Below are positions 48,206 through 50,999 of a DNA stretch of 57,679 nucleotides, in pieces. The DNA is taken from positions 1-57,679 of the forward strand of contig JACMLM010000072.1 in assembly GCA_014379595.1 (NCBI GenBank), in the 5' to 3' direction. Below the pieces are notes generated by a model. It was not told the origin of the DNA and ran no database searches. It saw nothing but the letters and a program-made list of their open reading frames with translations. Each line of letters starts with the position of its first letter. The stretch's first letter is position 1. Origin of the DNA: Anaerolineales bacterium (GTDB lineage Bacteria; Chloroflexota; Anaerolineae; Anaerolineales; Villigracilaceae). A program made the translations under genes and the position numbers.

Positions 48206-48709
48206 TTACCAGCCTGAAATATAAGGCTCCCACTCGCCGTTATCTGTCAGGTGCCGCCCAAAGATATATGCCGCGTTTGCAGGGGGTTCCTTTGGAATGT
48301 GCATGAGGTGCATGTGTGCTTCATCTACTTTACGGCCGCCCTTGCGATGATTACAGGTTGAACAGGCTGCTACCAGATTCGTCCAAGTATGCTGCCCACC
48401 CATATGACGTGGAATGACATGATCCACCGTCAATGCTCCATCACGTTTGCCGCAATACTGACAGGTATAATTGTCACGTCTGAACACTTCGCGGCGCGTT
48501 AATTTGACGTGTGGTCGTGGTCGATGAACTTGAGATTCAAGTCTGATGATCGAAGGGCGCGGAAGCAGCTGCGAAATTGTGCGAATGTGTCCACGTCCAT
48601 TAACGATCATACCGGCTTTACCTGCAAGGATCAGGCCAACCGCGCGTCGTGTTGAGCATACATGGATCGGCTCAAAATTAGCATTGAGTACGAGAACTGG
48701 TTCTAACAT
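48206..48709 (-). CDS. HNH endonuclease
   Basis: A 167-residue HNH nuclease of the McrA-like small family. The start (ATG at 48709, TAAGG before it) gives the family's usual opening MLEPVLVLNANFEPIHVC; longer frames upstream do not match. The core has CQYCGK, the HNH residues in LTVDHVIPRHMGGQHTWTNLVAACSTCNHRKG and two CxxC pairs for zinc. These stand-alone proteins are common in many bacteria and need not be mobile or restriction genes; nothing here points to a phage or an inserted element. Confidence 0.88.
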   Translation of the reverse strand: MLEPVLVLNANFEPIHVCSTRRAVGLILAGKAGMIVNGRGHIRTISQLLPRPSIIRLESQVHRPRPHVKLTRREVFRRDNYTCQYCGKRDGALTVDHVIPRHMGGQHTWTNLVAACSTCNHRKGGRKVDEAHMHLMHIPKEPPANAAYIFGRHLTDNGEWEPYISGW

Positions 48710-48936
48710 AAAAGCCTTACAACCTGCATGATTATACATCCAGTTAATTGAATTCGTGATTTCGCAAAAGTGCTGAATATTACAGAAGCATTTGAAATGA
48801 AGATGCTTATTGTTGGCGGCTCTGGCAGATTCGTAAGACCCAAAAGGCTGGCCGAGTCTGGGTATCAGTTCCAGTTTACAGGTTCGCATGAAGCGTTTAT
48901 TGATCTATTTAGTTAATGTATAAGGAGAAATATCCT

Positions 48937-49608
48937 ATGAAAAAATTAGTTTTAATACTAGCGGTTTTCCTAGCCGCATGTGCTCCAGCAGTTGAACAAC
49001 CGTCTGTTGTTTTGCCGATCCTTGCAACAGCTACTGCGTATATTGATCCATCCTACCCCAATGCACAAGTTGAATTGGCGGCGCCGAATCAAACTGCAAG
49101 CGGAATCGAAGTTCGCATGGAGCGGGCCTCGGTTGAAGGAAAAAATGTGAATGCCGATGTTTGCTTTACATTGCCTGACCCATCTGATTGGGGCATCTCA
49201 TCTGCAAGCTTGAATTATGCTGGAACAGTTTTACAGGAATATGGCACAACTCTTGTGAGTGTGCAGGAGCCATCAAATGGTGTAAATGGTTTAAGGTGCG
49301 ACACGTTAACATTTGTTGTACCGCCTGATGCAGACCTTACGAATGCAACCATTATCATCGATGCCATTGCTGCAACTCCACGTCAAGATGAGTATTGCTC
49401 TGTTTATATGCCCAAGATACAACAAGCCATGCTTGAACGCGGCATTGGGATTGTGTTGGAGTGTGTGGATGTAAATGGTCAAGTGACGATGCAGCTCATG
49501 AGCATACCGCCAGAAATGACTCAGCAGCAAGCTGAAGAAATTGTTTACAGCCCTGAGTTTTATTCTGTACAAGGTCCGTGGACTTTTTCATTCAATTTGG
49601 CACAATAA
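48937..49608 (+). CDS. Putative lipoprotein of unknown function
   Basis: A 223-residue lipoprotein: Lys-Lys start, hydrophobic h-region and a classical lipobox LAAC (Cys16), giving a lipidated mature protein. A mature domain (about 40-223) is mostly beta, with four Cys residues (including CFTLPDP and EYCSVY) that could pair. The ATG at 48937 has AAGGAGA eight bases upstream. No family is recognised. Its last codons contain the -35 box of the tyrS leader promoter. Confidence 0.82.
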   Translation: MKKLVLILAVFLAACAPAVEQPSVVLPILATATAYIDPSYPNAQVELAAPNQTASGIEVRMERASVEGKNVNADVCFTLPDPSDWGISSASLNYAGTVLQEYGTTLVSVQEPSNGVNGLRCDTLTFVVPPDADLTNATIIIDAIAATPRQDEYCSVYMPKIQQAMLERGIGIVLECVDVNGQVTMQLMSIPPEMTQQQAEEIVYSPEFYSVQGPWTFSFNLAQ

Positions 49609-49625
49609 AACTCTTGTTGTATAAT
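49597..49625 (+). promoter_or_regulatory. Promoter of the tyrS leader
   Basis: TTGGCA (49597-49602), a 17-base spacer and perfect TATAAT (49620-49625). The predicted start at about 49632 coincides with the ATG of the leader frame. Confidence 0.8.
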
Positions 49626-49631
49626 AGCCCA

Positions 49632-49682
49632 ATGTTTGGCATAAGCTTTTCAAAAAAATATTATTATTACACCTATCCATAA
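49632..49682 (+). CDS. Tyrosine leader peptide of tyrS (candidate attenuator peptide)
   Basis: A 16-codon frame, MFGISFSKKYYYYTYP, with five Tyr codons: four consecutive (49659-49670) and one two codons later (49674-49676). The ATG lies six bases after TATAAT, so the mRNA should be leaderless. Its TAA is followed after six bases by the 5' arm of an antiterminator. Such a Tyr run directly before tyrosyl-tRNA synthetase, with promoter and terminator on either side, is the classical layout of ribosome-mediated attenuation. Confidence 0.8.
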   Translation: MFGISFSKKYYYYTYP

Positions 49683-49688
49683 AGCCTT

Positions 49689-49725
49689 TGCGATGGTGTG
49701 CTATAAACGCGTCCTCATCATCGCG
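49689..49725 (+). ncRNA. Antiterminator structure of the tyrS leader
   Basis: Bases 49689-49698 can pair with 49716-49725 (10 bp with two G-U pairs). The 5' arm begins seven bases after the leader-peptide stop, so a ribosome at that stop would cover it, while one stalled at the Tyr codons would leave most of it free. The pairing encloses the 5' arm of the terminator and uses its loop, so the two folds should exclude each other. Confidence 0.6.
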
Positions 49726-49738
49726 GGCGCGTTTTTGT
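49705..49738 (+). terminator. Attenuator terminator upstream of tyrS
   Basis: A 10-bp stem (49705-49714 with 49725-49734, one G-U pair) with a ten-base loop, followed by TTTGTTTG, lies 50 bases before tyrS but after its only good promoter. It therefore has to be bypassed for tyrS to be transcribed. Confidence 0.75.
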
Positions 49739-49787
49739 TTGCCAATTTGTAGTGTGATTATTATGCTGCACATATCTCGGAGGAAGA

Positions 49788-50999
49788 ATGAATATCGAAG
49801 AACAAGTTGAATTATTGATGCAAGGCACGGAATACGGTGATGATGAACTTAAGAAGTCAATGACCAATGAATTGCGTGAACGTTTGGTCATTGCGCAAAA
49901 AGAGAATAGACCACTTCAAGTATATTGCGGCTATGACCCTACATCCACTGATTTGCATCTTGGCCACACGATCACCATGCGTAAACTTCGTCAATTTCAG
50001 GATTTAGGACACGAAGTCACTTTTCTCATTGGCAGCTACACGGCATTGGTGGGTGATCCTTCGGATAAAAACAAAGCGCGTCCTATCCTGACCGAGGAGA
50101 AGGTCGCCGAAAATGCATTGACCTACACCGAGCAGGCGTATCGCGTACTCGATCCTAATAAGACGAAGATCCGCTCTAACGGTGAGTGGCTTTCCGAACT
50201 TTCACTTATAGATTTAATTCGGCTTGGTCAAAACTTCACGGTTCAACAATTTCTAGCTCGCGATAACTTTTCTAATCGCTTGGATAGAGGTGAACCAATT
50301 TATTTGCATGAGACTTTTTATGCATTGATGCAAGGCTATGACGCCGTTGCAATGAAAACAGATGTGCAGATCGGCGGCTCTGACCAGCTATTCAATATCA
50401 TCGTCGCTGGGCGTAAACTACAGGAAGCGCTGGGCCAACGACCTTTGGTTGGAATTATTACTGCTATTTTGCCCGGCACTGATGGTGTGCAGAGAATGTC
50501 CAAGTCCACAGGCAATATTGTTCCAATCAACACCGGTGCGAATGACATGTTTGGTAAGTTAATGTCCGTACCTGATATGGCAATGAGTTTATATATGCGC
50601 CTTGTCACACGTTGGAGTCCGCAGGAGATTGATAAGGTCGAAAAAGATTTGGCGGCAGGCACATTGCATCCGCGTGATGCAAAGATGAAAATGGCAAGTG
50701 AGATCACAAGTATCTTCTATGGTGATGCGGAAGCAAAATCTGCTCAAGAGAATTTCATCAAGACTTTTCAACAAAAAGAGATTCCTGATGAAATGCCTGA
50801 ATATGAATTGCAATCTGGTCAAACAATTGTAGATGTAATTCTTGCATCGAATCTTGCAGAGAGTAAAAGCAAGGCACGGTCTTTAATTGATCAAAAAGGT
50901 GTACGGCTGGATGGGGAAGTGCTTGAGCGTGGTGACGCTCCATTTCCGCGTCCCGGAGTTTTACAAGTAGGGAAGCGTCGCTTCTTAAGAGTTAAGTAA
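49788..50999 (+). CDS. tyrS: Tyrosyl-tRNA synthetase
   Basis: A class I aminoacyl-tRNA synthetase of 403 residues. The N-terminal catalytic domain has the HIGH-type motif HLGHT (about 57-61) and the KMSKS-type motif QRMSKS near 237-242. A helical anticodon domain follows, then a C-terminal S4 domain (about 340-403, AESKSKARSLIDQKGVRLDGE). The QIGGSDQLFNI block near 195-205 is a Tyr/Trp synthetase signature. The ATG has GGAGGAAG upstream. It is preceded by a Tyr-rich leader frame and a terminator, and followed by a bidirectional terminator. Confidence 0.95.
   Translation: MNIEEQVELLMQGTEYGDDELKKSMTNELRERLVIAQKENRPLQVYCGYDPTSTDLHLGHTITMRKLRQFQDLGHEVTFLIGSYTALVGDPSDKNKARPILTEEKVAENALTYTEQAYRVLDPNKTKIRSNGEWLSELSLIDLIRLGQNFTVQQFLARDNFSNRLDRGEPIYLHETFYALMQGYDAVAMKTDVQIGGSDQLFNIIVAGRKLQEALGQRPLVGIITAILPGTDGVQRMSKSTGNIVPINTGANDMFGKLMSVPDMAMSLYMRLVTRWSPQEIDKVEKDLAAGTLHPRDAKMKMASEITSIFYGDAEAKSAQENFIKTFQQKEIPDEMPEYELQSGQTIVDVILASNLAESKSKARSLIDQKGVRLDGEVLERGDAPFPRPGVLQVGKRRFLRVK

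Follow-up and report, generated by a model that had tools for sequence, protein, structure and literature searches.

The window analyzed here is a 57,679-nt contig of an Anaerolineales bacterium in which tyrS follows a promoter, a short Tyr-rich ORF and a series of overlapping RNA helices. Farther upstream lie a lipoprotein-like ORF on the same strand, for which an NCBIfam search returned no match, and an HNH endonuclease-like ORF on the opposite strand. The lipoprotein-like ORF overlaps the leader promoter, whose -35 box falls within its last codons; a comparable overlap occurs in many relatives of the same genus. The features of the locus are as follows.

48206-48889, minus strand: HNH endonuclease-like ORF, with a weak likeness to part of IscB that falls below the cut-off
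48916-49608, plus strand, as the leader: lipoprotein-like ORF 5' of the leader, ending 23 nt before the leader ATG
49597-49625, plus strand: promoter, -35 TTGGCA (49597-49602) and -10 TATAAT (49620-49625) with a 17-nt spacer
49632-49682, plus strand: leader ORF, MFGISFSKKYYYYTYP and stop, 16 codons, probably leaderless, its ATG 6 nt 3' of TATAAT
49659-49670 and 49674-49676, plus strand: the five Tyr codons of the leader ORF, four of them consecutive
49668-49677, plus strand: arm 1 (protector), overlapping the last Tyr codons, assigned from predicted folds and comparison
49689-49700, plus strand: arm 2, partner of arm 1 (as 49692-49700) or of arm 3 (as 49689-49698)
49716-49725, plus strand: arm 3, the terminator loop and antiterminator partner of arm 2
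49705-49740, plus strand: predicted intrinsic terminator, AAACGCGTCC-loop-GGGCGCGTTT (hairpin 49705-49734) with a T-tract, -15.6 kcal/mol
49779-49784, plus strand: Shine-Dalgarno-like GGAGGA of tyrS, read in the sequence
49788-50999, plus strand: tyrS, tyrosine--tRNA ligase, 403 aa (TIGR00234, 356.9 bits against a cut-off of 113.8)

The TTGGCA-N17-TATAAT promoter proposed by a first-pass annotation is confirmed in letters and coordinates. With 11 of 12 matches, it ranks first among the four promoter-like sites listed for 49400-49850, a region for which shuffles gave an expected mean of 1.2. A second promoter-like sequence, TTGGCA-N17-TATTAT (49636-49664, 10/12), lies inside the leader ORF, its -10 hexamer made of Tyr codons, and was set aside. 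The A of the leader ATG is the seventh base after TATAAT and thus the expected +1; as the first-pass annotation had held, it opens a 16-codon frame with five Tyr codons, four in succession. Across all six frames of the whole window (3025 start-to-stop frames of 8-40 codons, nested starts counted), the leader stop is the sole stop position with a frame containing YYYY or at least five Tyr.

Downstream of that stop, the 10-bp antiterminator described earlier, in which TGCGATGGTG (49689-49698) pairs with CATCATCGCG (49716-49725), and the overlapping terminator with its T-tract before tyrS can both be read directly. The terminator was missed by the terminator scanner because the latter limits loops to 8 nt and the loop here has about 10. 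A third helix absent from the first-pass annotation, the protector hairpin, joins the end of the leader ORF to arm 2, and the minimum free energy fold of the locus contains this hairpin and the terminator together. Taken as a single sequence, the locus folds in a mildly unusual manner (z -1.30), with 20 of 200 shuffles folding as well. The case for regulation at this locus is built mainly on comparison rather than on single-sequence folding.

For this comparison, tyrS was sought in 61 genomes of relatives and 296 genomes of the class. The window TyrS pairs in a tree with that of a MAG titled Anaerolinea sp. (support 82), and the pair is nested in a 20-row TyrS clade that includes a MAG titled Candidatus Villigracilaceae. 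The same-genus set comprised 39 different genomes including the window's own, of which 37 had the tyrS start in view. The first-pass annotation had proposed comparing the regions upstream of tyrS and had named relatives devoid of the Tyr run or the hairpins as evidence against an attenuator. Within the genus, both are kept, and the leader element is present in 36 of the 37 genomes (33 in loci L002-L034, plus G010, G025 and G228 (L132)). The exception is G165 (L136), which lacks the leader; its genome is small (2.7 Mb), and a TATAAT lies near tyrS in place of the leader.

The 33 leaders of L002-L034 are 14-17 codons long, one of them with a GTG start, and every one contains 2-5 Tyr, with a longest run of 2-5 that ends 2-5 codons before the stop. 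Both Tyr codons are used (70 TAT, 37 TAC), and Tyr is the commonest residue in an enlarged set of 46 leaders (150 of 711). A covariance model (R1) built from 46 sequences, most same-genus leaders among them and hence not independent of the genomes searched, matched exactly once in each of 35 same-genus genomes, out of 37 such genomes among the 61 searched; the remaining two are those that yielded no tyrS. Every listed match directly precedes tyrS, as does a weak extra match (E 0.004) in G049, from another family. The R1 search used stricter filters, under which weak copies elsewhere could escape.

In the alignment of 46 sequences, 95.1% of antiterminator cells and 90.5% of protector cells are paired, and sliding the arms by 1-3 columns lowers these values to at most 60.5% and 60.9%, respectively. 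Covariation of the hairpins, also proposed as a check by the first-pass annotation, proved to be divided: compensatory change occurs in the protector and the antiterminator, but none occurs in the terminator, which at 99.3% paired cells is nearly invariant and too conserved to provide such support. The protector core TACACC/GGTGTG changes from CG to UA in nine sequences and the antiterminator from GC to AU in nine. Arm-2 column 68, mostly G, is A in nine sequences, and both of its partners are T in the same nine; the change may represent a single event. Cells changed on both sides number 9 against 2.7 expected in the antiterminator and 11 against 4.1 in the protector, above all 500 shuffles, and the counts of pairs or pair types with change on both sides in these two helices are not above shuffles. 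In g23, another genus of the family (L073, L074, L105, L140), all three arms differ together, reading by eye approximately TTCCC / GCGAGGGAA / CCCTCGC.

Duplex energies were also compared with shuffles for 79 loci, L039 and L041 being among those left out. In 26 of the 33 genus loci and in 23 of the 46 others, the antiterminator duplex is stronger than 95% of arm-2 shuffles; those passing with different sequences include L043, L069, L070, L076, L086 and L087, and examples of failure are L034, L036, L040, L045, L071, L096, L168 and L169. For the protector duplex, the same level is reached less often, in 15 of the 33 genus loci and 12 of the 46 others. Beyond the family, the evidence for the helices weakens. 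Read from sequence and comparison, then, the window and its genus present a conserved promoter spacing, a short ORF with a Tyr run, an association with tyrS, and predicted protector, antiterminator and terminator helices that are mutually exclusive and of which two covary.

The leader ORF is probably translated leaderless. TATAAT precedes the start codon by 6 nt in 32 of the 33 genus loci and by 7 nt in one; the best -35-like hexamer sits at a 17-nt spacer in 32 of the 33, and a -35-like hexamer with four or five of six matches, at any spacer, is found in 29. Between TATAAT and the leader ATG of the window, there is no SD-like sequence. The window's genome contains 93 TATAAT-N6-ATG sites versus 28 for the reversed pattern. 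Thirty of these sites were read: one is the tyrS leader, and a frame of at least 80 codons is opened at 21 of the 29 others. A start codon at the expected +1 therefore seems usual in this organism, which makes a leaderless tyrS leader likely rather than proven.

Folding predictions bear on how such a leader could act. In the window, RNA left free from 49683, as with a ribosome on the fourth Tyr codon, is predicted to fold to the antiterminator (-19.4 kcal/mol), and RNA free from 49695, as with a ribosome at the stop, to the terminator (-15.6 kcal/mol). Equilibrium and nascent-RNA folding were scored for 82 loci. In the equilibrium folds, the terminator generally prevails irrespective of ribosome position: a last-Tyr stall lowers its probability by more than 0.5 in just 4 of the 33 genus loci and 5 of the 49 others. 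In nascent RNA modelled to end before most of the terminator 3' arm, shifting the ribosome from the last Tyr to the stop costs the antiterminator at least three expected pairs in all 33 genus loci and in 34 of the 49 others. This loss is partly built in, because arm 2 is covered when the ribosome sits at the stop. The antiterminator of the stalled state beats arm-2 shuffles (p ≤0.05) in 19 of 33 genus loci and 12 of 49 others. Since the terminator usually wins at equilibrium regardless of the ribosome, the mechanism would have to be kinetic in most species. Classical attenuators are generally held to act kinetically.

The reading we favor, at a probability of roughly 0.86, is that a leaderless mini-ORF and the helices behind it form a ribosome-mediated transcription attenuator by which tyrS expression follows the supply of Tyr-tRNA; the value was lowered slightly because the protector test is weak in single loci. 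RNA polymerase would start at the A of the leader ATG, with ribosomes entering the leaderless 16-codon ORF close behind. Under ample Tyr-tRNA, a ribosome reaching the stop codon would cover the 5' half of arm 2, arm 3 would remain free as the terminator loop, and transcription would end before tyrS. Under scarcity, the ribosome would stall on the Tyr run, cover arm 1 and free arm 2, which could then pair with arm 3 before the terminator 3' arm exists, so that no terminator would form and tyrS would be transcribed. Without translation, arm 2 would be held by arm 1, and the terminator would form. From the features described above, we infer leaderless translation, stalling, termination in vivo, a kinetic switch and a response to tyrosine.

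A variant of this reading keeps the attenuator and differs in the start: the leader would be read from a longer transcript, SD-less or by reinitiation from the upstream gene. In its favor, the same-strand upstream ORF stops 23 nt short of the leader ATG, and the Tyr run of 13 loci in other groups lies within the upstream gene itself. Against it, all 33 genus loci have TATAAT 6 or 7 nt upstream of the start codon, and the window has no SD-like sequence between the two. We consider a longer transcript unlikely, and its odds overlap with those of the favored reading. That the short ORF is incidental to an ordinary terminator and a constitutive tyrS promoter is harder to reconcile with a best promoter upstream of the terminator, with Tyr runs that recur in other families with different sequences, and with protector and antiterminator arms that vary together. 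On its side are the full gene (48916-49608) that the locus follows, an equilibrium folding that prefers the terminator in most loci whatever the ribosome does, and a 9-of-12 promoter-like site at 49739-49767. TATAAT is absent between the terminator and tyrS in all 33 genus loci, for which reason this site was rejected as a downstream tyrS promoter; an incidental ORF is very improbable.

The leader might instead act on translation or by reinitiation, with ribosomes reloading on tyrS, and leader genes have been proposed to raise translation in this way (PMC4833913, in the passage concerned). Against such coupling, the distance from the T-tract to tyrS varies from 24 to 198 nt in the 33 genus loci, tyrS has an SD-like site of its own, and a terminator with a T-tract intervenes; we give it slightly less credence still. 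Finally, a T-box or other tRNA- or ligand-binding riboswitch would make a Tyr codon the specifier, with nothing translated. T-boxes are common in these genomes, with RF00230 matches in 61 of 61 searched and above the cut-off in 50. The window's genome (G000) has six; the four read precede other aaRS genes, namely pheS, valS, thrS and serS (L215-L218 on contigs C57, C38, C41 and C50), and the matches before thrS and serS score 89.4 and 85.3 bits, below the gathering cut-off of 93. Moreover, B. subtilis tyrS uses a T-box (PMC2494555, in its account of that gene). At the tyrS locus of the window, however, neither a T-box nor any other cis-regulatory Rfam match appears at gathering score or up to E = 1, the Rfam amino-acid leader families give no match, and the Rfam listing holds only tRNAs and chance-like, below-cut-off matches to other families. 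The riboswitch was rejected on this Rfam result; a further argument against it is that several Tyr codons share one frame bounded by a start and a stop and that both TAT and TAC are used, and its chances are slight in the extreme. With T-boxes at other aaRS genes and a leader at tyrS, two kinds of tRNA-charging sensor seem to coexist.

Tyr-rich leaders before tyrS extend beyond the genus. A set of 167 distinct tyrS upstream regions was used out of 190, L002-L034 contributing 33 and other phyla 23. A terminator-like site is present in 92, and in 56 such a site follows a stop whose 12 preceding codons include at least three Tyr. The corresponding counts are 30 for Leu and 21 for Ser, frequent residues that also score because any stop codon in any frame is accepted; at four or more residues, Tyr gives 15 and Leu 7. 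Genus L002-L034 dominates the 167-region Tyr count. In the 111 regions outside this genus and the other phyla, 59 have a terminator-like site, and the counts are Tyr 26, Ser 17 and Leu 17, or Tyr 6 and Ala 5 at four or more. Leaders with terminators invisible to the scanner are missed by this count; L167, L171, L175, L190 and L203 were read by eye. None of the 23 loci of other phyla (L109-L131) has two or more Tyr, and only one has a terminator-like site. By eye, 20 tyrS upstream regions of other Chloroflexota classes, from a phylum search of 151 genomes, show no clear leader, with a possible one in L230 (..QYIYLWRARGWGAIS and stop).

Within the class, four further leader designs were distinguished, several of them by eye. 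In the first, leaderless-type mini-ORFs carry other sequences, for example MVCNTIFFQYTYYPHR and MIDIKRYYYLFI, each followed by a stop. The second has YSYxGG(D/G)(Y/F)AP near the leader end and a terminator (L149, L153, L181, L197, L268); this YSY..GG..AP type occurs in Caldilineales-like and other families, with L150 also listed. Leaders of the third end in YIYxSGL or alike, and in nine of ten the predicted fold has a long hairpin whose 5' arm consists of these final codons (L167, L168, L169, L172, L190, L260, L263, L266 and L267; not L262). L266 and L267 have no clear terminator, and leaders of this design often then show a separate GACCCAC..GTGGGTC hairpin. The fourth places Tyr early in the leader, with the common end ARxAxATGGFTxS (L171, L264). 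Many loci lack any of these designs, among them several records named Anaerolineaceae (Pelolinea, Thermanaerothrix). A hand-picked subset of 74 TyrS proteins, with leader labels assigned by the analyst, gives a tree on which the leader types require at least 13 changes. The TyrS of L087, a record titled Chloroflexus sp., falls among Anaerolineae in this tree, and the record is probably a mislabelled MAG.

A distinct arrangement places the Tyr run in the C-terminus of the full gene directly upstream of tyrS. It was found in 13 loci, with the tails RRYYARE, YYYARE, TYYARS, RYYGR, SYSYYARK, RNYSRP, RYYTRP, VYYARA (twice), GYYYSRL, FYYERQ, FYYYSKI and GYSYARD; 12 of the 13 have at least two Tyr. 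In L035, L036, L039, L041, L045, L046, L069, L070, L076, L081, L089, L090 and L206-L212, a gene for a bPH_6-like membrane protein upstream of tyrS has a Tyr-containing tail with a terminator-like hairpin immediately after it. The product has about 170 aa; of 10 members scanned, 7 match bPH_6 (best E 1.3e-5; the match of the member shown falls under Pfam's cut-off). Eight of the 61 relatives have a bPH_6-like gene, and seven of these genes adjoin tyrS, all seven combining a Tyr tail with a terminator-like hairpin (the hairpins of L208 and L211 were judged by eye). The eighth (G055, L213), the sole control unlinked to tyrS, lies away from it, ends ..TPLNSSS and has no Tyr tail. Only one further bPH_6-like gene was found among the 296 class genomes, in G238, where it adjoins tyrS without a terminator and runs on past its Tyr pair. 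In L086, a tail with one Tyr is followed by a separate leaderless-type YYY mini-ORF, an arrangement consistent with the sensor having passed from tail to mini-ORF or the reverse. YYxR may also be a protein motif instead of a sensor.

Among the tail loci, the antiterminator beats shuffles in six of nine scored and the protector in none of the nine, and a ribosome at the stop removes at least three antiterminator pairs from the nascent RNA in just 5 of 11. Owing to these protector and antiterminator results, the estimate for a broader proposal was lowered, and we give it even odds: Tyr-sensing attenuation of tyrS would be widespread in Anaerolineae and rebuilt several times with unrelated RNA sequences, and in part of the class the C-terminal Tyr tail of the complete and unrelated bPH_6-like gene would serve as the sensor, with dedicated leaderless mini-ORFs replacing tails or replaced by them. 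If so, the last codons of a functional coding sequence would also serve the gene that follows as its leader peptide. Should the tail design prove real, it would offer a concrete way for leader peptides to emerge from ordinary genes or to be lost into them.

E. coli attenuators combine a leader ORF containing a run of the regulating codon with protector, antiterminator and terminator helices. The tyrS leader resembles those of E. coli trp, his, pheA and pheST in its codon-run ORF and three helices, pheST being also an aaRS gene. It departs from them in concerning Tyr and tyrS, in a start codon probably located at +1 without an SD sequence, in belonging to another phylum, in using arm 3 as the terminator loop and in matching no Rfam leader family here. 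Attenuation of trp, pheA and pheST is named in the relevant passages of PMC11802643, and that of his in those of PMC9413887. The statement in the first-pass annotation that aaRS attenuation is known for pheST stands but is incomplete, as classical attenuators are also predicted, in the pertinent section of PMC1262725, for Streptomyces trpS and leuS, aaRS genes outside Proteobacteria that differ in the amino acid. The same section describes the tyrosine operons of its Actinobacteria as showing no conserved RNA structure. The C. glutamicum AroR leader (Phe-Tyr-Phe) before aroF likewise contains Tyr; unlike the tyrS leader, it belongs to a biosynthetic operon and, in the account given by PMC11802643, answers Phe limitation and not Tyr availability. 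As described in part of PMC5784534, the C. diphtheriae ilvB leader is also a short regulatory ORF with its start codon at the transcript 5' end, differing in its amino acids (Ile/Val) and phylum (Actinobacteria). The mycobacterial polycysteine ORFs, as cited in PMC9031893, share a start at the transcript 5' end and differ in sensing Cys, in phylum (Actinobacteria) and in being described as regulating downstream translation.

The broad 2010 survey PMC2965389, in the passages at issue, limits demonstrated leader-peptide systems, to its authors' knowledge, to Proteobacteria and Actinobacteria, the atypical ermC aside, and adds Firmicutes to the phyla that have them. In the open-licence PMC literature, covered partly among the matches listed and with subscription papers mostly outside, neither a Tyr-specific leader on tyrS nor leader-peptide attenuation in Chloroflexota was found; a gene-tail sensor was not met there either, this design not being among the names searched. 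The first-pass view of a Tyr leader on tyrS as unusual is upheld to this extent, but its leaderless character has precedents (PMC5784534 and PMC9031893, in the parts noted above). The mechanism itself belongs to a known kind that includes aaRS genes, and leaderless leaders have been described before.

T-boxes bind tRNA directly and have no translated leader, in which they differ from the tyrS leader described here. Textbook pairing assigns a leader peptide to pheST and a T-box to tyrS. A single genome with T-boxes before pheS, valS, thrS and serS and a putatively translated leader before tyrS would be the reverse of this pairing, and tyrS as the exception among aaRS genes is a question open to comparison. 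With the Firmicutes tyrS T-box, as presented in part of PMC2494555, the leader would share the same gene, a Tyr-tRNA charging signal and control by transcription read-through.
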